A stretch of DNA of 64,000 nt from Nymphaea colorata (lineage: Eukaryota > Streptophyta > Magnoliopsida > Nymphaeales > Nymphaeaceae). The stretch is from contig NC_045148.1 in NCBI RefSeq assembly GCF_008831285.2, forward strand, positions 6,639,001 to 6,703,000, written 5' to 3'. Below are positions 4,258 to 53,160 of the stretch, one piece after another. Every line of letters begins with the position of its first letter. Positions within the stretch are counted from its first letter, which is position 1. The notes under the pieces were generated by a model that worked only from the letters and a program-made list of their open reading frames with translations, searched no databases and was not told the DNA's origin. Made by a program: the position numbers and the translations under genes.

Positions 4258-4324
4258 CCTTCACAAGCCACACCTTCTAGAGCACTGCAATCCCGTTTCT
4301 CCTTAGTAAAGGAAGCAAACAACC

Positions 4325-5407
4325 ATGAGAGCTAAAAATATGTCAGGCTCTCCTGGAGGAAGGCTCCTCTTTCTCGTCCTTCTTAACCTTCTTCTTCTCC
4401 ATGCTAGTGCTGGTGCTCGCAAGCTGCTGAATGAAAAGGCCAACCATGAAGAGGCCAACCATGAAGAGACCAACCATGATCAGGCTGCTCCCAACCTAGA
4501 TGACCAAAAATGGTTTGATAAGTCTTGGGGAGGTGGTATGGGGGGTGGATATGGTGGCGGCGGCATGGGCGGCGGGTTTGGTAAAGGTATTGGTCTTGGT
4601 GGATTGGGTGGTGGGTCTGGTCTAGGCGGTGGCTTGGGTGGTGGTTCTGGTCTTGGTGGCTTGGGTGGTGGTATTGGCAAAGGCCTAGGCGGTGGCTTTG
4701 GTGGTGGTTCTGGTCTTGGTGGCTTGGGTGGTGGTTTTGGCAAAGGCCTCGGCGGTGGCTTTGGTGGTGGTTCTGGTCTTGGTGGCTTGGGTGGTGGTTT
4801 TGGCAAAGGCCTCGGCGGTGGCTTTGGTGGTGGTTCTGGTCTTGGTGGCTTGGGTGGTGGTTTTGGCAAAGGCCTCGGCGGTGGCTTTGGTGGTGGTTCT
4901 GGTCTTGGTGGCTTGGGTGGTGGTTTTGGCAAAGGCCTCGGCGGTGGCTTTGGTGGCGGTTCTGGACTTGGTGGCGGTTCTGGTCTTGGTGGCTTGGGTG
5001 GTGGTTTTGGCAAAGGCCTCGGCGGTGGCTTGGGTGGTGGCTCTGGTCTTGGTGGCTTGGGTGGTGGTTTTGGCAAAGGCCTCGACGGTGGCTTCGGTGG
5101 TGGCTCTGGTCTCGGTGGTGGCTACGGGAAAGGTTATGGCAAGGGTTTTGGCTGGGGCGGTGGGTACGGCAAAGGCTTTGACAAAACTACATTTGGCCTT
5201 GGCCATGGCTGGGGCGGTGGCTACGGCAAAGGCTTTGACAAGAGTGCATTTGGCCTTGGCCATGGCTGGGGCGGTGGCTACGGCAAAGGCTTTGACAAGG
5301 GACTTGGTTTTGGTGGCGTTGGAGGTGGCGGAGGTGGTGGCATGGGCGGTGGTGGTGGTGGCGGTGCAGGAGGAGGGTACGGAAGCTACGGAGGTGGGCA
5401 CCATTGA
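4325..5407 (+). CDS. Secreted glycine-rich cell-wall-type protein (class I-like GRP)
   Basis: A single intronless frame of 360 codons. Residues 1-12 are basic and polar, 13-29 form a leucine-rich hydrophobic core, and a signal peptidase site is likely around residues 28-31 (ASAGA). After an acidic/basic linker with three NHEE/NHDQ-type units (about residues 40-54), the rest is glycine-rich. A 63-bp unit (21 aa, containing GFGKGLGGGFGGGSGL) recurs about seven times between about 4678 and 5095, with one 18-bp insertion. Three 57-bp units (19 aa, with GWGGGYGKGFDK) follow from 5151, and the tail is GGGGGMGGGGGGG-like. Proteins of this architecture are exported to the cell wall and are thought to be structural; the exact function here is inferred. 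The start at 4325 follows the TATA box at 4250; Met6 is an alternative. Long open frames in other frames over the repeat are by-products of its codon pattern. Confidence 0.9.
   Translation: MRAKNMSGSPGGRLLFLVLLNLLLLHASAGARKLLNEKANHEEANHEETNHDQAAPNLDDQKWFDKSWGGGMGGGYGGGGMGGGFGKGIGLGGLGGGSGLGGGLGGGSGLGGLGGGIGKGLGGGFGGGSGLGGLGGGFGKGLGGGFGGGSGLGGLGGGFGKGLGGGFGGGSGLGGLGGGFGKGLGGGFGGGSGLGGLGGGFGKGLGGGFGGGSGLGGGSGLGGLGGGFGKGLGGGLGGGSGLGGLGGGFGKGLDGGFGGGSGLGGGYGKGYGKGFGWGGGYGKGFDKTTFGLGHGWGGGYGKGFDKSAFGLGHGWGGGYGKGFDKGLGFGGVGGGGGGGMGGGGGGGAGGGYGSYGGGHH
4678..5095 (+). repeat. Coding minisatellite, 63-bp unit, about seven copies
   Basis: The word CAAAGGCCT recurs at about 4678, 4741, 4804, 4867, 4930, 5011 and 5074. 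Spacing is exactly 63 bp except for one 81-bp step, which contains an 18-bp insertion. The central copies look almost identical, which suggests recent unequal crossing-over or slippage. The unit is a multiple of three, so copy changes keep the reading frame. Confidence 0.9.
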
Positions 5408-20756: not shown

Positions 20757-23700
20757 TCAGAGAGGCCGGGTTCTCCGGCCAGACGCCCGGCCACACAGGA
20801 GTGCATTCCGGGGGATGGGGTTCTCATCTCTCCATGAATTTACAGGGGAGTACACTCTGAGGTAGAACTGTTGTCCCAAGTATTGCCTGGCCCAGTTCTC
20901 TGATCTTATGTTCCACATCCCCACATTGTCCAGAGGCATGTAGATTGCAGTCCATGACTGAGGGTATACCTGTAACAGTGGGAGATAACACTTTTTCAAC
21001 ATATGCAAAAAATGAGGGCACATGCACGTACTGTATCTGGTACAACCTTTGATGTAAAATGTCTAACACAAGCGCGACACATGTCCAATAAATGAGACCT
21101 ATGGCTACTTTTCAGAGTACCAAGCAGGACAAGTGTGACATTCTCATAGTGATAATTATATTAGTACTTCAGTTGATCATTTTGCTTTATCCAAATCAAA
21201 GTTTCAACTTCTTGAAATAAAATTTTACCTGAGTTGTGCATCTGTAGACGCCATCTCGAAGATTATATCCGTTCCTGCTTGCTGGTGTCCATTGGCCCCC
21301 ATCCATTCTGCCCATATCAAGGGGAAAAGATACATTAAGTACCAGTAGGCTTAACAAAGTTCGCTGCCTTTTCTTAACCAATGGCTACATTCTGAGATTT
21401 TAGTGCAACAAGCCATCAAAAGAAATTCTGAAATTTCATATCTTCTGTCATGTCATAAATCATGCTCTTGGCAAAATACCATAAAAGGAAAATCAATCCA
21501 TGACCTCATTTCATTAACCAAAAGTGCGAGTAATGCTAATAATCAAGCTTATCTTTGCTATTCCTAGAATATACTCATCTGAAACAGTGCTGGAACTGAA
21601 AAAAAGAACTAGATTGTAGGCAAGACAAGTACTGAGCTGAAGAACAAGCAGGAAAATTGTGAATCCATTGGATTCCTGTGGCATCACAAAGAAGTGACAG
21701 GTACAAATGTAGTAATTAAATCTTCAGGAATGCCGTGGTACTAATAACAGCAGTCTTTTTCTGATTCAATGACATGATGAAGACATCTTTAATGGTGTTC
21801 ATAATGGTCCAAACAGGACAGTAACATCAAAGGCTGCACCACAGATCGACCATCATGAGAATCCTGTCCCTTGGTCCCATCCCCATCTATAGTGGGACAT
21901 GGTGTCCATGGCTGGCTCTAAATTTCACGGCTAAAAATTGACACGTATTTCGATGTAATAGCAAAAGGGCACACTATGGACTGGCCTATCCATCTGATTT
22001 ATTGGACATGTCTTCCCGGAGACTTGAACCTATGGTTTCTCACTTGGCAACTCAACACTGTATATTGCCTGTTTGCCCATAACCACTAGATCTTAATGAA
22101 CACAGATTGGTATTTCAAGACAGGAAATAATTCAAGCACAGTTTCATGCATCAATACATGAATCTTCTGCAACTTGTATCAAATATTAGCGACAAGTTGA
22201 TTACCCGACAACGAAAAATGAGTAGCCATCAATGTGCCATGACTGCACCGTGTTCTCATAGTTTTGGAAGATGATTTCAACGTATGCCCGGAAATCAGCC
22301 TCCATTACAGATGTCTGCAGGTAGGCACCGCCTCCATGGGGGTAGTCCGAGATGCTGCCAAGTGAGAAAACTCCCTGGATATTGTAAAAGTCGGCTACCT
22401 TCAACGGCGTGTCGGCCGGAATGAAGGAGACACTATTGATGGCATATCTCTGCTTGCCATTGATGACAGCCGCTGAGTTTGCCAGTTCAATGGTTCTGGT
22501 GGTGTTAACCAGTCCATAGTGGTATGAACCTTGTGGGTTTGGCCTTGCCGCGCTCGCAGTGAGGTTCCAACTACAAATTCACAACAGAAAAGAGACAATT
22601 TAAAGCATTCTGTTCAATCTTACTTGAACCAAAGTTAAAAATCAATCCACTTAATTCTGCTATACACTATACAGAAAGCACAAATACAAGGCCTAGACAG
22701 AGAAGATGACAACTATAGACTCATTATACCGTATGGATCTAGCCTGATTGAGGGACCAATCGATCTGAATGGTGGGCCCGCCTGGCGGTGGGCCGGAAAC
22801 ACCGCCGGCGGAGTTGCTGTAATGCAGTATGGCAGTGCTGGTGAGGATCTGGCTGGTGAACCTTGTGGAAACGACAATGTAGTAGTCCTGGCCTGGCTGG
22901 TCCATGGTCACCAGCACTGAATATGATTGCCCCAGATGGACGTCCAGCGAGGAGTAATGGTTCTGAAGCGTGTGTGAGCCCTCCACCTCCACCAAGGTCA
23001 TGGTGTGCCCCTGGATCCTAAAGTTGAGCGACGTTGTCAAGCCCACATTCGAAATCCGGAACCTGTATGTTTTTCCTGAATCAGCAGACATTGCTGGTCA
23101 GATTCTGAAGCTGCATGTTAAGTAAGAGCCTGGCGCCATGCACAACGTAATTCTGGGAAGATGAAATTGTACAACAGGAATTGCATGCAATTATACTCAA
23201 AAGAGTTTTATATTTTTGGAGCTTAGTTCTTCCATCATAACTCTAACCACATAGGAATGGGTTTTTATGCCTTCGAAACTTTGAAGGGTTCAATCTTCGA
23301 AATTTCAGATTGCTTAGATATCCTATTTAAAATATGAAAAAAAATACAAAAAACAGGAGAATTGGTTTCTAAATCTTGAAGTCCATAGCCACAAATATCG
23401 CTAACTTTTTAAATGACGAAACTTTTCTGAAGTATTTTTCTGCAAAGCTGAAATTCTCAAGAAAAGCTCGACATTTTATTAGAAAAGAAAAAATCTTGAA
23501 AATTGAGAAAAGTAAAATAAATGAAAAAACTAACCATGAAACATAAAATGTCTTGTTAAAATGATAAAATAGTAGAAATGAAGATAAATAATTTTAACTT
23601 AATTTTAAACTTTAATACAAAAATAATGTAAAAATAATGAGAAAAAACACCATAAAAGCACAAAAAAACACGAACAACTCATTTCGAAGTTTTTTTCAAA

Positions 23701-24277: not shown

Positions 24278-27200
24278 AAAAGTTAAATATTAGTTGGCTT
24301 TTTAGGGTTACTTAACTATTTAATAAAGATCGTTTAATTCAGCATAATGAATGATTAAGACAAAAATAAAAAGAAAAAGAAAATGGTAGTAAACATGTTT
24401 GTTATGTAGCATTAGTTTTCATGTATTCTTTTTTCTTGTTTTCTCCCAACCATAGGTTTAATGTAAATGAAAAACTTTGATTAAATGAGATGACAAAGTA
24501 ACTTTAGATAATCAAGTCATAAATCACTCACTTATACATATATACAATTTATTTGTTTTTCGTTTCGTTCAATTTCTTCCACAATAGCACATACAATAAA
24601 AGTTTCACTGTGAGAGATTGAAGGTTGTCACATCGGTTAAAAAGAGTGGGGTTCTACTTTTAAAAAGAATTTACCTTGATCGACGGTGAAAGACAAACCA
24701 TTGGTGCCCCGGCCATTGATGAGGATGCCATCAGGGAAGGGCAGGTCATGTCCGCCGTCCAAAACTGCTCTCAGATCCTGGATTTATCATGAAAACCAGT
24801 GAACCCATCACGCTTCGCCGAAAGCTAGTGACCACACTGCCTTTCTCTACAAGCTCAGGACTAATATGAACTTACAGTGTGGTTGGCCTTATACCAGTCG
24901 CCGATGAGGACGGTGAAATCGCCGGCCGGCGGGGGGAAGGGGACGGGTATAAGAGGGCGGCTGTTGACTCGGAACCCGCCGTAGCCGCCTGCGGCTTTAT
25001 GCATTGCCAAGGAAGGGAAGTAGAAGTAGCTGCCAATCTGATCCTTTACCTGCAAAAAATATGTGAAGTTCTTCCCTGGTGGTATGGGGCAGTTTGTTCC
25101 ATACACTCCATCCATCCATGAATTCCTCCTCTGCTGGATGCCGTTCCTGATTTTGATTCTAAAATTAATTTTCTACAAACAAAGATTCCTCCTCAAACTC
25201 AATTGGAATGAAAATTTCAATTCTAGTTTTCACTTGTGTTTGACAGTTTGGAATCAAATTCTAGAATTGAAAATGATGTGTGTGATAAAAACATGAATTA
25301 AGGTATTAAAATTGATGAATTAAAAGCATCAATGACATGTGCTGCCTTAAAGAGAGATGAAAAAATTTTAAAATTCTAGAATCATAATTCTAGATTTTAC
25401 TTCAAGAGTGGCGTATAACTCCTGAACCAAAGTTCTTTGTTTGGTAACACAATGCTAATGTCAGCAAAAATGAGAATTTCAATTGTATAATTTCACAATT
25501 CCGAACACATCAAATGCCGTCTTAAGATCAAAAAGTTTAATCTGATTGGCACCAGAAACTTAAATTACCATCCTTTCGGATCCGAACCGAGTTCTATCCA
25601 ATTTAGATCAGATGTAGCTAGAGTTCGACAAAAAATTAAGAAACGGCCTCACATTCGTTATCAAATTTCAGTTAATTCGGTGGCACTTGAATGACATTTT
25701 GTAGTCCTACAATAGCTGCATTTTTAGATCTTCCAGAACAAGATCTAGACCCATTTGCATGGAATCATGGATTTGACTGGTAGTTTTATATCAATGGTCT
25801 GAATCCACTCATATCATTTTTGTATTTTGTAAACATATGATAAGGGAAACTCAGTTGCATTCAGAAAGAAACCTCATCCGAATCCAGATCAAATACTATT
25901 TTAACTTACCTCCTAATTGTTTTGTGGGATTCAGTTTGAAGATATGGTTTTGGATTCACAACATGCTTTACAAGACCAAAACATTAGATCTAGATTCGAG
26001 GCTCAGACTAAGGAAGCTGCATTGGATCCAAACTGAGGTTTACTGTGATGCAAGTGAATCCTGCCCTAAAAGAGAATCTCTAAAGACTTGTCCTAAAAAA
26101 AGGTGAGCAGAAGCCCTGTGTCTGGCTACTCTTATGAGACACTCAAGAGTGCACCCACAAGAATCGAATTAAAGACGGCGCTGTCACCAGGTATGATACT
26201 CTCCTCGAGGCGGGTCTCTAGGAATTTGTCCCGAGAAGTAAAAAAGACAGAGAAATTTCCCTTTTTCTCTTTCAGTATAAGGAAAATACATTTCAAGCAT
26301 CAGTAACAAAGAAAAATAACAAATCGACTCCCCTAACAAAATCCCCACCTTAATATGAGAAATCAGAATGTCCCTTCCCCAATCAAACACACGCGGCCGT
26401 ACATATTTACTTTGTATTTATAACAATATATTATTAAACTTTAAAAATGACATTGTTTAAACGGAAAAATAAAATTCACTTAAATGAAAATATAGAAGTT
26501 ATATTTTTCTTAGAAACTAAGTTGAGGGATTGAAATGGATGAAGACCAATCGACTCCCCTAACAAAATCCCCACCTTAATATGAGAAATCAGAATGTCCC
26601 TTCCCCAATCAAACACGCGCGGCCGTACACATTTACTTTGTATTTATAACAATATATTATTAAACTTTAAAAATGACATTGTTTGAACGGAAAAATAAAA
26701 TTTACTTAAATGAAACATATAGAAGTTATATTTTTCTTAGAAACTAAGAAGAGGGATTGAAATGGATGAAGACCAATCACCCCAAGCTCTGCCGTGCACG
26801 CTTCCCTAGTGCACGAACACGAACACGAACACGAACACCGAGACTGCAGCTCATGGAGGCTTACATAGAACAATTATTTGGCGAACGGGTTGTCCTAGAA
26901 AGGAATATTTCTACAATATTGATATTATTATCTTATAAAATCAAGAAGGTATTGAAGTCATAGTAACAGTAAGAATCTTGGATTAGTACGAAAGATTTGC
27001 TACCAATCGGGGGCTTTTGGATCAGGCTTGGCTGTGTGGGGTTGATGGATTTAGGTTCAAATCCAAGTAATAATACCGACTCCAGTTTACTTGGACCTCA
27101 TTTAATCAGGTTTAGGCTTTTAATTTCGGAGCCAAACCCGATCCATACTGGCATAGAGCCCGTAATAGAGGGGGCAGCATCTTTTCTGGATCTAATACTT

Positions 27201-42017: not shown

Positions 42018-42832
42018 AGTGCAAAGTTTAAACCCTCTCGGACATTAAACAAAGAAAAAAAATCTATGGTAATTTACCCATCATAAGCAGAAACAGCTTC
42101 AAATAGGTAGGGTCTTTCATCCAACTCCTTTAAATCCAAATACCTTGCAAGTTCATCTGCTGATACAGCTCCATCAATGTCCTGCAATCCAGTTTAACAA
42201 AACAAATTACGATGAAAAACAACCAGGTGGCAAGTAAATTTTGAAGTCATTTAGCCTGTTTTTCTCTGTCAATACTTGTCAAGACATCCATGTAAATTTT
42301 GGAAGCATGTAAACTCTTTTTCTATTTTTTTTCTTTTTTTTTTTGGTCTCCGCCAAAGTCTTGTCAGGACTGCAAATGCTCGACAAATTAAATAGATGTG
42401 AATGCATAATCCATATACTGATCTATATTGCTTAATATTCCATCTGGATCTGGTAAGGATCTAACTAACCCAAAGAACGAGATTAAATAACCAATTAATG
42501 TTGGTAAGAATTACAGATAACTTATACGCTAAAGTGGGCAGAACAATATTAGCAGCTCTAAATCTAAAAATCAATTCAAACATGGTATTTTAAATTCATC
42601 AGTGACATTGCTTGGAAAGTACTTTCAACCAATCATAACCACTGCTGGCAATATCAGGACTCCCTCTTGGATTGGTTGATCACAATCCGGGTGAGCCAGG
42701 TTGGCATGGGTTTTTGGCTTGTATGTTAAAAACTTAAAAGTAAATGACAAATATATGATTTTCAATGTACAAGTTAAGAAAATAAATACACGTATATTGC
42801 TAGACGTAATAGTATACAGAAGTCTTTTACTG

Positions 42833-42878
<46 letters not shown>

Positions 42879-45800
42879 TAAATGTATGGAAAACAATTCA
42901 ATTATAAAATTAGTATTACTTGGTCAACTAGGCCAAGTCTGCTAAAAATAAGTTGACTCACCAAGTCAAAAATGTTAACAGGAACAAATTTGATCATAGC
43001 CAAGTGAACCTTGTAACTTAGATATACAAGAGTTCAGGAACCTAGTTTTAACTTTTTTGGTCTTAACCTGTTGCACCAGATCACGACTTTAGTGGTGGAT
43101 TGCATCCAAGGATGTGAAGAAATGGATGTCAGGACACAATTTTCATTACCTTTTACGGTTCAACGATATTTACCAGATGAATGTGAAGGAGAATGAAACT
43201 TGCTGAAAGTTCCAATTTTTTAAAAGAACTAGACTTCTGTTCATGATAGTACCTGCTTGTTTGCGAGTATCAGCAGCGGGGCACCTTGTAAATCTTCATG
43301 TCTAAGTACTTTCTCTAATCAAGAAAGCTACAGATATCAGCTGGATAAAGTGCCATGATCCTAGTCAATTAACAAAAAAGAAAAGAAAAAATTGTCCAAA
43401 TTTAAGCAGAACTGACCTAAAGCAGACTTTGAATCTTCAAATCGCTGTTGGCAAGCAGCATCTATCACATATATTATGGCATGTGCCTCCTCAAAATATT
43501 TTTCCCAAATTGTACGAAGTCCACTCTACAAGTAAATTGCAAATAAATAACTGATCACACATTACACACAAACAAGCATATCAATGATATGTACATGCAA
43601 CTCTGTATGTAGGTTCGCAAAAAATTGGAATCAGATTGAAGAATAGATTCAAAAGCCAAGAAAATGAGAACACGCAGATGAGGCAAAACAAGCCATTGCA
43701 AATTATAAGATCCAATTAGTAGGTTGAACCAAAAAGAGCAGGTTGAACCAAAAAGGAGCCAGTGAAATCCTACAAGGTCAACTGTACCGTCAAAGATGGG
43801 GAGAACTAAGATCATAAAATTGGCAGGTCAGAGAATGATTAGCTGTAATAACTCAATACAAACATAACTTAGACATAACTGTATGTAGGTTCGCAAAAAA
43901 TTGGAATCAGATTGAAGAATAGATTCAAAAGCCAAGAAAATGAGAACACGCAGATGAGGCAAAACAAGCCATTGCAAATTATAAGATCCAATTAGTAGGT
44001 TGAACCAAAAAGAGCAGGTTGAACCAAAAAGGAGCCAGTGAAATCCTACAAGGTCAACTGTACCGTCAAAGATGGGGAGAACTAAGATCATAAAATTGGC
44101 AGGTCAGAGAATGATTAGCTGTAATAACTCAATACAAACATAACTTAGACATAACTGGTTCCTGTTGATTATGCCACAGTTCTTCTGCGTAATATTTGAT
44201 ATTCAGCAGGGCCTCGCTGAACCTACACTCTATTTGGTTAGAAAAAAGATATACATCATTTCTTAGTTCTTCATTGGGTGAGAAAAAGCAAATTATGATG
44301 TATTAGGTCATAGAATGCCTACTGATAAGCAAACAGAACCAATCTCAAGCAAGCTCAAGTCTAGTTGCAAAGTCTAACAAGTCAACAAACTTGCTGTTTT
44401 ACTTGTTCAAACTTGCCTTGATCTCCTAAATATCCGTCGAGATCAAGTATAGTCTTCCTTTCCTTTTGCAATCAGTGTGAGGGCAAAGCTGTAGGGATCC
44501 CAGCAGGAGCTAAACAAACTCAATCAGCAAATTGAGTGAAAGCAAATGCTAAAACAATGTCAAAGATCTACCTCTAGGGAAAATCTCAAGAAAAATAAAA
44601 ACATCATGAAGACCATTAGCACATATCAAGATATTAAGTAAAAGAAAATTGCAAATCTAAAGAATGCTTCAAGCTACTAGAGACGAAGATAGTTTTAAAA
44701 TAGGAAATATTTTGGAAATCCCTTGCACCGTGGGGGTTATATCAGATTTTATACGTACAAAGTTACACAATATATATACATACATAGACACATACATATA
44801 TATATAAGGTTCTTGAAACACAGACTCCGAAACGTCCAAAATGAAACTATTGACATGCACTTCAGAGTGTTTTTTGGCAAATCGAACCATAAGCATGCTA
44901 AGTCACATGGCTACAAGTACGGAGATACGGGTATGGACATGATAACTTTAGAAAATATGGGTACGGGGGTATGGCAGGATATATATATATATACACAAAA
45001 TAACACAAAAAAATCAAAATAAAAGCAACATTCAAATAAGCAAGTGACTTTAAATAAAACCATACATGTTAATGAACAATAACTAAAAATAAAATGAAAA
45101 CTGAGTTGAGAAAAAGTAGATCACATAAAATTAAGCCGTTTGGATTGGTTTCGATCTAAAAAGTACCCAAGTGTATCCAAGTACCTACTTTGGGAACTGC
45201 AACACGGGTACGTAGACCTTATTGAAGTACCCATTGTGACTTAGTAAGCATGTGATCTACATATGAAAACCTAAGAATCAAAGAAAGTACACAAATTTTT
45301 AATGTATAAACTGGATTCTGTAAGTACATAAAATTTAGTAGTCCAAATTTGTTGGGCTTATAAAATCTGATTTACACATAAAGAACCACATACTATATGT
45401 TGATTAGTATGTTCTGGAAGAGATAGAATCCATCTGCATGGAAAAATTTGTAGAAAGCAGCACCAAAGTAAAGGTCAAAACTCCAGAAATGACACAGATG
45501 TAATGCATATCTGCACACAGCACTATAAATATATATGCACATACATCATGTTTTGCATATTTATCAGAAAAAGTATCTGCTGTCTAACAGGCACTTCCAC
45601 AGATGTTCGTGGTAGTTTTCCTGTTCAAAACCAAACGGTATCCTCTTAACACATATTTTAAAAATCAAGATTTTTCACACCAAGCTCTGCTCAAGCTTAG
45701 CCAAGCAGAGTTTGAGCTTCCTTACACTCAGTGCAAATGAGTTCAAGCTAGTGGATTCGAGCTTGACTTCAGATCAAGCCAAGCTCCAGCTGGCTTGTTT

Positions 45801-46701
45801 TTGAGCAGCCTCGGCTCAGCTCAGACTCAGCTTGTGTCTACTCCTAATAAGACAGGAAAGCTTTAATTGAAAAATTGGAACAAAAAAGAAGAATAGAAAG
45901 GAAAATAGTTCAAGTTGCAGGTCATACTGTATACCTGACCTCCAAGATCCCAAAACACAAGTTTTGTGTTCTCCACTTCCATACGACCAATATTCAGTCC
46001 CACAGTTGGAACAATGCGGTCTGGTGGAAGGCCTTCCAAGTTTGAATATGTTGCCTTCAACTTTTCAAGCAGAGTCTGCGATTTTCATAGAGGAAATGCA
46101 TTAACCTTATTGTTGCATGGAATCATATTAATGCCAATAAATGATATGAAGCAAACCACATCATACAAACACAATTCAGGTAAGAACAGGATGATCCGCA
46201 GTATAAAAGCAACATTTTGCAAAACTGTTACATAAAGTAATTGTCACATGCACCGAGTTGCAAAAATCAATGTAGACAAATTTATTTAGGCTTTGTTACC
46301 AAAAGTCAAATAAAATTTAAATTTCAGTGCGCGTGGTATTTTCATTTGAAAAAATATCAACTAGTTATCGAGTCCAGTGTGCCAGAAACAATATAAAGAA
46401 CAACCTTTAGTTTGTGTCCCCAATGGTGATATTCATGCAGTGTAGTGACTATAAGTATCAATCAAGCAAAACCATCTGAAAAGAAAGGTCATGATCTATA
46501 AATTTTGACAAAAGCCAAGATAAAGCAAACTGCTCATCAGAGAGCTACTAGTCTAATTAATTAGCCAAATATCATTTATAAAGCATGTGAGAAGCAAAAG
46601 TGGATTACCGTCTTCCCAGCTTTGTCAATCCCAAGAATGAGGACATGAAACTCAGTCTTGCTGAAGAGAAACTTCCATAGTCCATATAACAATGAAAACA
46701 T
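41650..46701 (-). CDS. ARFRP1: ARF-related small GTPase ARFRP1 (ARLB1 type), six coding exons
   Basis: Coding exons on the minus strand: 46701-46609, 46075-45935, 43525-43417, 43314-43253, 42181-42078, 41758-41650. All introns are GT-AG; the product is 205 aa. It begins MFSLLYGLWKFLFSKTEFHV, with the P-loop GIDKAGKTT (24-32), switch I Thr55 in VPTVG, WDLGGQ (73-78), NKQD (133-136) and SAYD (166-169), so all nucleotide-binding motifs are intact. Gly2, needed for ARF myristoylation, is Phe, as in the ARFRP1 branch. In animals and yeast (Arl3p) this GTPase sits at the trans-Golgi and recruits ARL1 and golgins; the plant role is inferred from that. Intron 2 carries a perfect 276-bp tandem duplication. 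The leader intron carries an inverted pseudo-copy of exons 1-2. Confidence 0.95.
41938..42017. repeat. Composite (C)n(CA)n(TA)n(GA)n microsatellite in ARFRP1 intron 5
   Basis: C-run, then CA, TA and GA units in succession. Read in the sense of the gene this is (TC)n(TA)n(TG)n. Confidence 0.9.
42836..42877. repeat. (TA)n microsatellite in ARFRP1 intron 4
   Basis: About 20 TA units. Confidence 0.9.
43605..44156. repeat. Perfect 276-bp tandem duplication in ARFRP1 intron 2
   Basis: GTATGTAGGTTCGCAAAAAA starts at about 43605 and again at 43881. I read no difference between the two 276-bp copies. Each ends CTTAGACATAACT. Inside each copy is a smaller doubled AGGTTGAACCAAAAAG word. Confidence 0.95.
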
Positions 46702-47453
46702 CTCTTTAGATACTTCACTATCTTCTGTTTTGAGATACCCCCACCTTGAGCTTTCAATAATTCAGAAGAAAACATGAGAAAGATCCACAAGCATCAGTTA
46801 AGCTCTACAGTCTACTCCTCCCATCAACATCAGCACAACAAGGCCATGAAAGCTAAACATATAAAAGCAAAACACAGTAAAGGAAAGAAGCCCAACACAC
46901 AAAAGAAACTCAGACACAGATACAAAAATGAAGCATCAGTTCTTACATCAAGACACCTAGGATCACAAACATCCAGGTAAATGAGTTCCCTTCGAGCTTT
47001 GTGGATTATGACAAGGGAATCCTTCTATCATCATTTTCAGTTTTGCAAGAAACAATGAAGGTTAAGGGAGATCGTTTCCAGGTTGGGAAAATTTTGGACT
47101 CAAACTACTCATGGCATGTGCTCCACATAAAATTAATGACAGAAGAAAGCTTGCCTACGCAATTATTTGAAAAAGCAGGCCATGAATGTATCCTTCTGCT
47201 CTTTTCCATTTTTGAGTAAACACATGCAATCTGGGCTAATAAATATAACTAAAAAAAAAAGAAAAGAAAAAGTAAACCGATCTCTCTCTCTCTCTTCCAT
47301 CAACCAATAATGCAAAATTTCCAACTTTCATCAGGAAAAGGATTCCCTATTTTCTCCAAAAATTGTTACCGCTTGATTCAATAGGTGAATGCTTCCCAAT
47401 AATTGTCATCAAGCAAAAACGGGGCACAAAAATAATAAGAATCAAAAGTATGA

Positions 47454-47878
47454 AGGGGGTGTTTGGTGAGGCAAGAATTGTGGAATTCTAGAATTAAAAT
47501 TTTCATTTTTGATGAAATGGAAATTACGTTATCAAACAAAGAATTTTGGTTCTGGAATTATAGACTCATTCTTGAATCAGAATTCCAAAATTGTGATTCT
47601 ACCCTAGGGGTGGAATTATAATTCCATAATGTCAGAACTTTTTCATCTCCCTTTAGGGTACATGTTATGATAGTTTTAAATTTTTAGTTCATCAATTCTA
47701 AAACTTTAATTGCTGTTTTAACAAACACATAATTTTCAATTCTGAATCAAAATTTCAGACCATCAAACACAAAGGGAAACTAGAACTGGAAGTTTCATTC
47801 CAATTCCAGTTTGAGGTGGAATTTTATTTCTATAATTTTAATTCCAGAATCAAATTTCAAGGCCCGTCAAATGCCCCT
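47454..47878. mobile_element. MITE-like element with inverted ends (AGGGGGTGTTTG type) in the ARFRP1 leader intron
   Basis: The left end AAGGGGGTGTTTGG pairs with the right end, read on the opposite strand, AAGGGGCATTTGAC. The interior is rich in GGAATT and AATTCC words like the elements at 3580 and 25150. The target duplication is unclear (TGA against TAA). Confidence 0.55.
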
Positions 47879-48834
47879 TAATGGACATAAACTCAAGTGA
47901 GAAAGTAAATTCATTTGTAACGAGAATAACAAACATTTGCTCTTAAGTATGAAGGGAGGAATTATGAATTTCTCAATTGCAAATAGAAAAAGAGGGATCA
48001 ACCAAGCAGAAAAAAAAAAACCATTTCTTCCTTTATCTACTCCATCAAAGAAAATGGCAAATGCTCATAAACTAAATTTGGAAAAGAAACAAAAATTTTG
48101 CCTACTTTAGTGGGAATTCTAGGGGAATCTTTGCTCTACTCTTTCGAAAATTAGAGAAAGCCACTTCCCCAATTTTTCTTTTTGCACTCAAGGGTTTCTA
48201 TTCTAGTGCCAACAAGTTGGAAAATGTGATTGTCAACCCGAATCCAACTTATGTCCCTACGGTTCACCTATCAAATTTAACCAAACTTTGGGTTATTCAA
48301 TTCGAATTGACTGATGCACTCCAATTTTAACAACACCAAAGATTGTTAATCGCATGAAGCATGTCCTCAACCGGATTGCCTATTGGGTGGCAATGCACTT
48401 CGCTCCCAGGCAGATGTATTAAGGACCATATCACCATAACAAATGAGATTGTAAGTTGAGACCATAACAGTCAATGCAGCACTATCTACCTCAAGCTTAA
48501 GCTTAGCAAGACATATGAGAGGCACAACTAGGATTTCCTAAAAAAAATGGACGACTCCACCTTGGTTTCTATAGGACTTGGGTTCAAAGATAATGTGTCG
48601 TATGCATTGCTCCTGTCTTAGCTTGAATGGCATCATTGGAGACCATTTTGCTTGTTCTTGGGGGTTACACAGTGTTACCACTTATCCTCGTTCCTCTTGA
48701 ACACAACAATGGAAATTACTAACATGCACATTCAAGCAATAGTTCACCACAATCAAATTAACTTCCCAAAAGCTGGGTGCAGGATCAATATTCCTGTAGG
48801 CACTCAAGAACGTGCTGATATGATCAGCTTTTTT

Positions 48835-49244
48835 GGCCTCGTATTGATGTTGACGAGTGATTGATGCTTGTGAATCTTTCTCATGTTAGCTTCTGAACTA
48901 TCGAGGCACTCAGAGAGATATTTTCATTGTTTTTATGGACTAAGAAGGTATCTCTTCAAAAAGAGTGAGGGTCATGTGCTTCTTCTTGGTATTGGCAAAG
49001 GTAGGAAGAGTCAAGACAGCAGTGCACCACTGCACCTTTACTTCTTACATGGTTTATAGATGATATTTGGCTAATTAATTAGACTAATACTTCCCAGCAA
49101 TTTACCTTATTTTGGCCTGTGATAGAATTTTTATATCATGACCATTCTTTTGAGATGGTTTCTGAAGAGTCAAGACAGCATCGGGCAGTGTGTTTGATCA
49201 TGTCTGCCCGATGCATTTCTCAAGCTGGCCGAAGGATTTAAGCT

Positions 49245-49289
<45 letters not shown>

Positions 49290-50020
49290 AAATCTGAAAA
49301 AACTTCATGCATTTTCATTAAAAAGAAAAAGGGTTTAGTGTGTTTGCATTTTGGATCAAGTGCAACCCAGACTCGATCCAAAACATCCCATAATGTGTCT
49401 CGTACTCGTGTTGCTACGTCGCATGCCAAAATAAGTATAGGGACCAATCTGCTATGCCCATGTTACTTAGATGTTCAATGTTCTTACCTATAATTGTATA
49501 TGTACAATGTTGTTAGCTCATATCATTTGCTTGCTCTAAATGTTGTCCATGCAATAATAGCAGAAAATTTTCGTCTATGAAATCTGCAGACTCTGCTCAA
49601 GAACATGAGGCAACAGTTCAAACTTGAAAGGCATCCCACCACACTGCATTGTTCCAGCTGTTGCATTGAATATTTGGTTGTATGAAATGGAGAACACAGA
49701 ACTTGTGTTTTGGGATCTTGAAGTCAGGTATACAGCAACTTGCAGCTTGAGCCATTTTCCTTTCTATTCTTCTTTTTGCTCCAATTCTCAATTATAGTTA
49801 GTTTCCCTGTCTGAATGTTAGGAGGGGTCACAAGTTGAGTCGGAGCTAAGCTGAGACTGCATGATGAGCCAGCTCGAGCTTGGCTTGGACTGAAGTCAAG
49901 CTTGAGTCCGCCAGATTGAGTGCAGTTCCTTGAGTTGAAGGAAACACAAACTCGTTTTAGCGAAGCTCAAACAGAGGTTGGTGTAAAAAAAAATTATTTT
50001 TACAATATGCATTGACTAAG
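48835..50020 (+). pseudogene. Inverted, degenerate partial copy of ARFRP1 (exon 1, intron 1, exon 2, part of intron 2)
   Basis: Read on the plus strand this stretch aligns with the minus strand of about 46830-45640, including non-coding sequence. Anchors: GATGCTTGTG and TTTCTCATGTT upstream of the start; an exon 1 copy at 48918-49010; the intron word GATATTTGGCTAATTAATTA near 49060; an exon 2 copy at 49590-49727 with both splice borders kept; then the GAGCT-rich repeat of intron 2 near 49840-49990. The start codon is ATA, the P-loop is changed, the exon 1 donor is lost, and single-base deletions in exon 2 shift the frame. A (TA)n run at 49242-49287 is unique to this copy. It lies in the leader intron of the intact gene. 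Confidence 0.85.
49242..49287. repeat. (TA)n microsatellite inside the ARFRP1 pseudo-copy
   Basis: About 20 TA units, absent from intron 1 of the intact gene. Confidence 0.9.
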
Positions 50021-51011
50021 GCTTCAGCTTGATCTTGTGTAATAAAAAAAAGGCACACGTGGATGGTTTGGCTGATTCAGAAGCCATATTAAGCAAGGTG
50101 TTTTATCCATCAGTTTTCCTATGAGAAGATCAACTTTTGATTACTGTTTGATGCATTCAATTCATAAGTTCAGTAGGATCATTTATTGGAGAATAACTTC
50201 TCTTCTGCCCAAAATTCCCTTTATATTCACTTATCGTATTAAAATGAATGGACGTGGTTACCGAAACAAATGATGCACTTAAGACCAATCTATGCGCAGT
50301 TAAGTTATTTAAGGATAAATCATATATAGTATAAGCCTTATTCTAAGTGATGCAAGGACATATATTTAGGGTAACACTTATTCTCACATATCACATATTG
50401 TTCCCCTATTTGACTGGTCCTGCAGATCTTAACAGAATGAAACTGCCATAAAGGAAAAGGAATATAAAAGGCCACAGCTCATGAATATAGAGAAGCCAAC
50501 ATATCAAGCTGTCATGCTTGTAAATTTAGCTTAAATAAGAGGAATGCCAAACCATTATTATCTGGCAATGGTATGTTGACTTCCCAAAGAATTTGTATCA
50601 AGTCAAATCTTGTTCAGCCGACTGTAATATTTTAGATTCTAAGAGTTCCACCAAATCTAGATCAACACCACGCATGCCAGATCCCACAGCAGGAAAGGAA
50701 AAACAGCCAATGGATAACTATTGTCATCCTCGTCTTCAAAAGACTCAGGAGTAGAAATCAAACCACCAACCAACGCTTGATCAAAGGGCACCTTGACAGT
50801 AAGTTGAATTTAAAAACAGCATAAACCAAATTGAGTCATCAGATCCCCTAAACCACTAAAATGAGAAACGGAAAATTTTGATTTCCAATAAATACAAGGA
50901 AATGGAAAGAGAAAAACCATTCAGAAGCTCTTATCCCAGTCATTAAAACCCGCAGAAGAAAAGCAATTTCTACAAGCAGAGAGAGAGGAGAGGAAGCGGA
51001 GAGAGAGATAC

Positions 51012-51110
51012 CTGTGAGGGCGACGCCACGGCGCGGTCTGGGTCGATGAAGATGGAAGGAGGACCAGCTATGGCGACGGGAGGGGGAGGCTACGGCGAGG
51101 AAAGGAGAAG
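51012..51110 (-). other. ARFRP1: Putative 5'-UTR exon of ARFRP1
   Basis: On the minus strand a GC-rich leader ends GTCGCCCTCACAG|GTATCTC at 51012/51011, a good donor. A likely acceptor, TCAAAACAG, lies just before the start-codon exon at about 46725. The GC/CT-rich sequence up to about 51350 would be the promoter and further leader. The 5' end is not determined. Confidence 0.5.
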
Positions 51111-51349
51111 CCGCTAAGGAGAGGCAAGGAGGCCAGGAGGATCGAGCGGGAGGGAGGGGAGGGGCGGAGGATCTGACGGGGAGGAGCGAAGGAAAGGAGA
51201 GGGGCGGAGGATCGAGGAAGAGGCGGACAATAGGGGAAGGGAAAGATCGAAGGAACGGAGAAGATGGAGGGAGAGGGGCAGAGGACGAGGGGAAGATGGA
51301 GAGGGAGAGGGAGCGAAGTGGAGGGAAAGCGAGAGAGAGAGAGACAGAA

Positions 51350-53160
51350 TCCCTCGGATGTGGGCCATCAACCTTATGTCAAGAAGGGGAAAAGCGCATG
51401 TTCGGCCCGACCACGTAAGCTCTGGCAAGGCGGAGAGCAAGAGAGAGAAAAGAAGCCGAGGTTACTCTCGACTTTGGTATTGAGGATGATTATGGTTGCA
51501 AACCACAACTGCACCTTTTCCCCTTTATGCTCTCCCAACTTCCTCTTATTCACCAAAATGATAGGAAAACATCATTTCACCATCATCAAGAATATTGACC
51601 TTATTAGAGATTAGAAATGGCTCTGATAGACCGTTTGATTTAGAGATCATATGGGCTATTGTTTTCAAGGAGATAAAATGGAGGATATTAAGTTGCAAAT
51701 GTAAAAGCCAAACTTTTTTTTAAAGAGTCCAAAATACTCCTTCAAAAAATGTGAGAGATAAGGTAGGGGAACTAACGAGTTTTCTTAAACGTGTAACGCC
51801 TATATCTTTTCGAGGATATTTCAAACTCTTGAAAAAACAACTTAACTTTTGTATTTATAATTTAATTTTCACTATTTGAATTCCTTAAGAATCAATGATA
51901 TATAGATGATTTTCATCAAGTCTAGTATATGAGGGTTTGGTAGTTGTCTATTTCCCCACATGCATACATATATATGAGATGATTTAATGCTGCAGGATGT
52001 TGGATGTTGTCCAATAGTTAAAATTAAAAAAATTATCTTAAAAAAAGTCACTACATTGGCATTAGTGATGGTTTGTTATACAGCCCTAGATTTTAGTGAC
52101 TTTAACGATGATTTATGAACTTTTTTTACAACGAATTTTTGAATTTTAATCATCCAACAATTACCAGTAGTACTGACCATATATATAAGGTGGTTGATTT
52201 CATAAGATTGCCATAAATGTGTTTGACATATGTAAATGAACTCGAAATGTGCTTCAGATCTCCTTCTTTAGCGGCAGCACTATGAAGAGCTTCAACCTAG
52301 TAATGTCTTACCCATACATGGGGTCATTGTTCTGCATTAACTCTAGTAATCTCCATCAAACGAGACATCATAAGTGTGACGTTGAGCATGTGTCAAAGGA
52401 AGACAAAGGTGTTTGAGCTCAATGGTTTTTGACCCTCTAAAGAAAAGCTGTGAACCTGCAACTTAAGTTAAGCAACCAAATTACAAACAAAGTAAACATC
52501 ATCTTCCTTGAGTTTGCTTTGGCTGTGAAACATTGAATGAGCAAGATAGACTAACAATGTCACACCACAAAGTTGGAGTATTAAAGGTCGACACTCCAAG
52601 TTTCTTTAACAACTATTTTCACCAAATTATCCGACTCATAGCATTTGAAAATCCAACAAATTTTTGTGAAGGATCAAGCTTGTGCTTCATAAGAAGGCTC
52701 CAAGGGTGACGTAATTCAAGAGAGGGAATTCTTCAATGGAAACTTCATGGAATTTGCCAAACCCTCAAATTTTATAGATGCCATAACTTAAGATTTTGGA
52801 AACAAACCCAAATAGATATTCTAATGGATTCGTTAGGTTGAAGCATGTTATTGGGAAACGTAGACAGTGATTTAAAATTTTTGGTTTACACTTCAAAGAG
52901 ATTAACTTGAAATGAAGTTATTCAAGAATAATAGGAGCAAACAATTGATCCAATGAAATAAAGGATAGCGGAAAAGCCATGGCGTGAAAAAAGAGAATAC
53001 GTATCGTTCCTGTGAAGGCATTTTACTTTGAATTCAGGATGAGACTCAAAATCCAAGATCTCATTAGTCCTATAAAATGATGAGGAATCAATGAGAGATC
53101 TTGCAGGTCAATCAAAACAAATAAAATTCACACGATTTCTGTATGTCTACGACAATGAAA
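51350..53160. other. Intergenic DNA between ARFRP1 and the dehydratase gene
   Basis: AT-rich. The minus strand around 52235-52300 encodes a short ankyrin-like stretch in broken sequence; see findings. No intact gene. Confidence 0.5.

Follow-up and report, generated by a model that had tools for sequence, protein, structure and literature searches.

Plant MIRNA genes may originate by inverted duplication. In the model of Allen and colleagues (described in PMC3237417), an inverted duplicate of a gene segment can give rise to a foldback transcript that matches its source gene. Natural inverted repeats of gene sequence are described from the I locus of soybean, where whole clusters of CHS genes form identical 10.91-kb arms and small interfering RNAs (siRNAs) are reported (PMC6710647). 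In poplar, partial inverted repeats of ARR17 under relaxed selection lie on a different chromosome from their target and siRNAs were observed (PMC9636151), and rice MIR3863 and MIR2284 are intronic hairpins of more than 1 kb (PMC3661559). A comparable arrangement is present in a 64,000-nucleotide stretch of the Nymphaea colorata genome (assembly GCF_008831285.2, contig NC_045148.1, positions 6,639,001 to 6,703,000 of the forward strand; hereafter the window), in which coding exons 1 and 2 of an ARFRP1-like gene recur upstream of it as an inverted, decayed copy.

Structurally, the locus belongs with these known inverted duplications. As in the MIRNA-origin model, a gene segment has an inverted duplicate, a foldback transcript is possible and the duplicate matches its source gene; unlike in the model, the live gene forms one arm and the other arm probably lies in the gene's own leader intron, a layout that is the particular twist of this locus. 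The copy resembles the poplar ARR17 repeats in being partial, in its relaxed selection and in its inverted-repeat layout, but it lies in cis to the gene it matches. Its arms of 1.2 kb at 78% identity contrast with the soybean repeat and, unlike in the rice intronic hairpins, one arm includes the coding exons of the host gene; in contrast to the described cases, what is known here comes from sequence alone. The ARFRP1-like locus shows the inverted duplication of a target gene that is one of the features of a proto-MIRNA or siRNA hairpin locus. Literature searches gave no title on a gene whose intron houses an inverted copy of that gene's exons, which is not proof that none has been published.

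Comparison of the window with itself using BLASTN gave two collinear inverted matches between the gene and the sequence upstream of it, 45652-46188 against 50009-49479 (77.2% identity, 548 columns, E 3e-102) and 46469-46705 against 49161-48914 (74.7%, 253 columns, E 5e-42). Gapped alignment extended the homology upstream to about 46860 and 48816, respectively. Between the whole gene arm (46860-45652, minus strand) and the whole copy (48816-50009, plus strand), in inverted order, 662 of 849 aligned columns are identical (78.0%), and the homology begins in the pre-start region, takes in exons 1 and 2 and ends within intron 2. Identity is 73.2% in the pre-start region (where 62 gene bases are absent from the copy), 79.6% in exon 1, 80.7% and 72.7% in the aligned 5' and 3' parts of intron 1, 81.2% in exon 2, and 82.8% and 76.2% in the unique start and the repeat-like part of intron 2. 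The first-pass annotation of the window, made by a model from the letters, had proposed a continuous inverted match with arms of about 1.2 kb and a spacer of about 2 kb. The match itself and both lengths are borne out, the spacer being 1955 bp, but the continuity is not, as the central part of intron 1 (46189-46468 in the gene, 49162-49478 in the copy) is unalignable. A chance match is excluded: the best single match of the copy reaches 370 bits, whereas the top scores were 32.8 bits across 200 Markov-1 resamples of the copy and 31.9 bits among 112 overlapping 1500-base pieces from elsewhere in the window. The coordinates of the features are collected in Table 1.

Table 1 Features of the ARFRP1-like locus (positions in the window).
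Feature	Position	Strand	Basis
Probable leader (5' untranslated) exon, pyrimidine-rich and ATG-free	51012..51360	-	inferred from composition, lack of ATG and a donor site
Decayed counterpart of the gene arm, in inverted orientation	48816..50009	+	self-match, alignment, chance controls, decay features
Copy segment unalignable to gene intron 1, holding a (TA)n run	49162..49478		self-match, alignment
Spacer between the arms, with a repeat like a miniature inverted-repeat transposable element (MITE)	46861..48815		self-match
Gene arm (pre-start region, exons 1 and 2 with intron 1, beginning of intron 2)	45652..46860	-	self-match, gapped alignment
ARFRP1-like coding exon 1 (gene arm)	46609..46701	-	open reading frame, splice junctions
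Coding exon 2 (gene arm)	45935..46075	-	open reading frame, splice junctions
Coding exon 3, absent from the copy	43417..43525	-	open reading frame, splice junctions
Coding exon 4	43253..43314	-	open reading frame, splice junctions
Coding exon 5	42078..42181	-	open reading frame, splice junctions
Coding exon 6, with stop codon	41650..41758	-	open reading frame, splice junctions

In the copy the start codon is gone (it reads ATA in place of the gene's ATG), as are the exon-1 donor and the reading frame. Exon 1 carries a one-base insertion and, at the lost donor, a 15-base insertion, and exon 2 carries three one-base deletions, the exact places of all of these being alignment-dependent; the intron-1 acceptor AG and the exon-2 donor are still present as sequence. 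The 45 single changes in the exons comprise 11 synonymous, 33 non-synonymous and one stop, where shares of 25, 70 and 4% are expected, and the differences at codon positions 1, 2 and 3 number 18/75, 11/78 and 16/78. Divergence does not differ detectably between exons (45/231) and introns (71/332; P 0.60). Exon changes such as random change predicts, together with the similar divergence of exons and introns, are the pattern of an unconstrained copy and, with introns kept and the coding frame broken, the copy has the features of an unprocessed (duplicated) pseudogene. The overall Kimura two-parameter (K2P) distance of 0.26 indicates that the duplication was not recent. Both the decay and the age agree with what had been supposed at first pass. 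Methylation-driven decay of the copy was also considered, but changes from CG to TG or CA (5 in the direction of the copy, 4 in the other, no CG kept in both) are too few to tell. The copy contains two instances of one 17-nt word, at the lost exon-1 donor (49005-49021) and on the edge of the unalignable segment (49164-49180), which may represent templated filler DNA from repair.

The gene, by contrast with its copy, consists of six exons with GT-AG junctions and an open frame of 205 residues. The Arf domain (Pfam PF00025, E 1.6e-51) extends over residues 10-183 of 205, that is across the whole protein, which is a member of the ARF family of small GTPases. Of the NCBIfam models only a general small-GTPase domain scored above cut-off, and the top PDB sequence matches are ARL3, ARL1, ARL2 and ARF chains, with no ARFRP1 chain in the best 60 of 85. 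We use the name ARFRP1, given in the first-pass annotation, as a putative assignment; the product would be a small GTPase of membrane traffic. Its intron 2 also contains a perfect (100%) tandem duplication at 43603-44157, with a unit of about 276-279 bp, which is either very recent or an assembly duplicate.

The explanation that we favour, and consider likely, is that the copy is an old local inverted duplication, now neutral debris, in the probable leader intron of an intact gene. A single local event would have copied about 1.2 kb of the gene (the pre-start region, exon 1, intron 1, exon 2 and the start of intron 2) and placed it in inverted orientation about 2 kb upstream, probably within the leader intron. 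The copy would then have decayed free of coding constraint, the intact protein still being encoded by the original exons. The unspliced pre-mRNA could pair with itself along the arms, and such pairing would be a by-product normally removed by splicing. The single event, the leader exon, transcription across both arms and the lack of function are the parts of this explanation that we infer. Some observations sit less easily with it. The similar divergence of exons and introns is slightly odd, as drift in the introns and silent sites of the gene, had it occurred too, would predict a larger difference, and the intron value is biased down by omission of the unalignable part of intron 1. Moreover, the 11 synonymous changes of 45 fall below the 40% expected if silent sites drifted in both copies (P 0.03, one of several tests), which leans towards the copy having taken most of the changes.

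As to its origin, the copy contains the ends of intron 1 and the start of intron 2. This rules out retroposition, which would have left the introns behind, and identifies the copy as a DNA-level inverted partial duplication, as first proposed. A search with exon 2 of the 407.8-Mb assembly (783 contigs, the window lying on one of 24.3 Mb) scored two places, the gene (100%) and the copy (84%, query bases 4-143 of 146), and nothing else, which makes a dispersed exon-2 family improbable within the sensitivity of the search. Pack-MULE and Helitron elements transport gene fragments together with their introns and can insert close to the starts of genes. Such a DNA transposon might have captured the fragment and re-inserted it; we regard this origin as unlikely, and as it would be compatible with later neutral decay our confidence in it overlaps with that in the neutral-debris explanation. 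Among the best 25 of 35 inverted pairs of at least 14 nt in 47300-50600, none closely brackets the copy, the nearest being of 22 nt at 73% with one arm within the homology, and no third exon-2 place was found in the assembly; both observations argue against a transposon. A MITE-like, AT-rich element with partly inverted ends lies in the spacer between the arms, at 47475-47854, and forms an inverted pair with 25152-25501 (72% alike).

Composition points to a leader exon upstream of the copy. The minus-strand sequence 51360-51010 is 80% pyrimidine and 63% GC, with no ATG in 351 bases. When the plus strand is scanned in 341-base windows at 20-base steps, purine content peaks in the windows that begin at 50981 and 51001. 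The pyrimidine-rich block terminates at a donor, CACAG/GTATCT, at 51012. Motifs of the GGCCCA type are linked to housekeeping plant promoters, and one is located at 51366, just upstream of the block (51360-51012); other GGCCCA or AGCCCA words at 51657 and 47237 (minus strand) and 46889 (plus strand) make this weak evidence. Further upstream, the next signs of a gene on this strand are a prephenate-dehydratase match in frames at 56389-55946 and an ACT match at 55289-55149, the latter weak and below the Pfam cut-off. Two of the 14 AG sites listed look usable as the leader-intron acceptor, one with its G at 46751 and no later ATG, the other with its G at 46853, a better pyrimidine tract and five later ATGs. 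The ATG-free, pyrimidine-rich block with its donor thus supports the leader exon near 51012 that the first-pass annotation had suggested; the copy probably lies in a leader intron, whose length would be 4.2 or 4.3 kb according to the acceptor used, and both arms probably lie in one pre-mRNA. A promoter start beside the ATG was considered as well: six upstream ATGs in 46702-46860 (minus strand) make an unspliced leader less likely, although a very short leader still fits. TATAAA and TATATA are absent from the minus strand in both 46600-47300 and 51000-51700, which favours neither start.

The minus-strand RNA from 50060 to 45600 (4461 nt) is predicted to fold at -1633 kcal/mol, compared with -1224 kcal/mol when the copy is flipped to a direct repeat (one control) and -1142 to -1159 kcal/mol when it is shuffled (four of four shuffles). 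In the predicted fold, pairing is in register to within 2 bases at 703 of the 849 aligned columns, and the arms are joined by 108 stacked runs with 769 pairs in total, the longest of 30 bp. The start codon, the intron-1 acceptor and the exon-2 donor are paired to the copy arm and the GT of the exon-1 donor is unpaired. The self-folding anticipated for the pre-mRNA is therefore reproduced in silico, as a long imperfect hairpin that would cover the exon-2 donor. Homology in inverted order necessarily yields such a fold, which is thus no evidence of function. Transitions that keep pairing through G-U are not in excess (55 keep it and 46 break it, P 0.43), so that selection for the hairpin is unsupported. 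Of the fates suggested at first pass, edited double-stranded RNA is unsuited to a plant, as plants are not known to possess ADAR enzymes, and mere debris is the one we prefer, given the neutral pattern in the copy exons and the lack of favoured pairing.

The remaining fate is a working cis hairpin, whose double-stranded arms would be cut by Dicer-like enzymes into siRNAs that lower ARFRP1 mRNA or methylate the gene. We consider it improbable, in spite of the stability and register of the predicted fold. Of the 121 windows of 21 nt in exon 2, 17 match the copy with one or two mismatches and 37 contain a gap; of the 89 in exon 1, 30 contain a gap and no ungapped window has fewer than four mismatches. 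The substrates named for Dicer-like enzymes of Arabidopsis include endogenous inverted repeats (PMC12825306), and rice introns with long hairpins are described as yielding small RNAs (PMC3661559). Here, however, the arms are only about 78% identical, with many gaps, and changes that keep pairs are not in excess. The usually quick splicing of introns also speaks against this alternative.

Base pairing between intron 2 and the leader intron might instead bracket exons 1 and 2 and promote a back-spliced circular RNA, or hide the exon-2 donor and lower splicing. The geometry would suit this, as intron-2 sequence 45652-45934 is the counterpart of 49728-50009 in the leader region, and the exon-2 donor lies within a predicted 17-bp helix, followed by one unpaired gene base and a 20-bp helix. 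Circular RNAs are known to form through the pairing of introns, and a review (PMC11276256) states that 17.3% of the regions that flank circular RNAs in maize contain LINE1-like elements together with the reverse complements of these. In most of the plants that it names, maize excepted, such pairing is rare, with more than 15 nt of pairing at 46 of 6074 exonic circular RNAs in rice and 1 of 5152 in Arabidopsis. The model is, moreover, a minimum-energy fold of the whole segment, and co-transcriptional splicing may outrun folding; we consider this alternative very unlikely. Much the same holds for a self-targeting hairpin, in which slow splicing of the leader intron would let the fold form over exons 1 and 2, hide the exon-2 donor and feed siRNAs against the gene's own message, so acting as a splicing-rate-dependent brake on a housekeeping GTPase. 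An assembly artefact or a chance match can practically be dismissed: the inverted arrangement alone speaks for an artefact, whereas 22% divergence with frameshifts makes an assembly duplicate improbable, and chance scores top out at 32.8 bits against 370.

Elsewhere in the window, an open frame at 4310-5407 encodes a glycine-rich protein with strong internal repeats, frames at 22201-23097 (minus strand) match the Cu-oxidase and Cu-oxidase_2 domains of multicopper oxidases, and 26319-26778 is a tandem direct duplication of about 233 bp with 96.6% identity. Rfam gave no match at the gathering score across the whole window.

It has been proposed that new small-RNA loci of plants begin as inverted duplications of genes. 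At the ARFRP1-like locus the copy lies in cis, probably in the same transcription unit as its source, and its decay is advanced enough to ask whether splicing makes such hairpins tolerable. Without small RNAs, the locus would be a useful example of harmless debris; if small RNAs do arise from the arms, the gene would provide a natural example of self-silencing by way of a leader intron.

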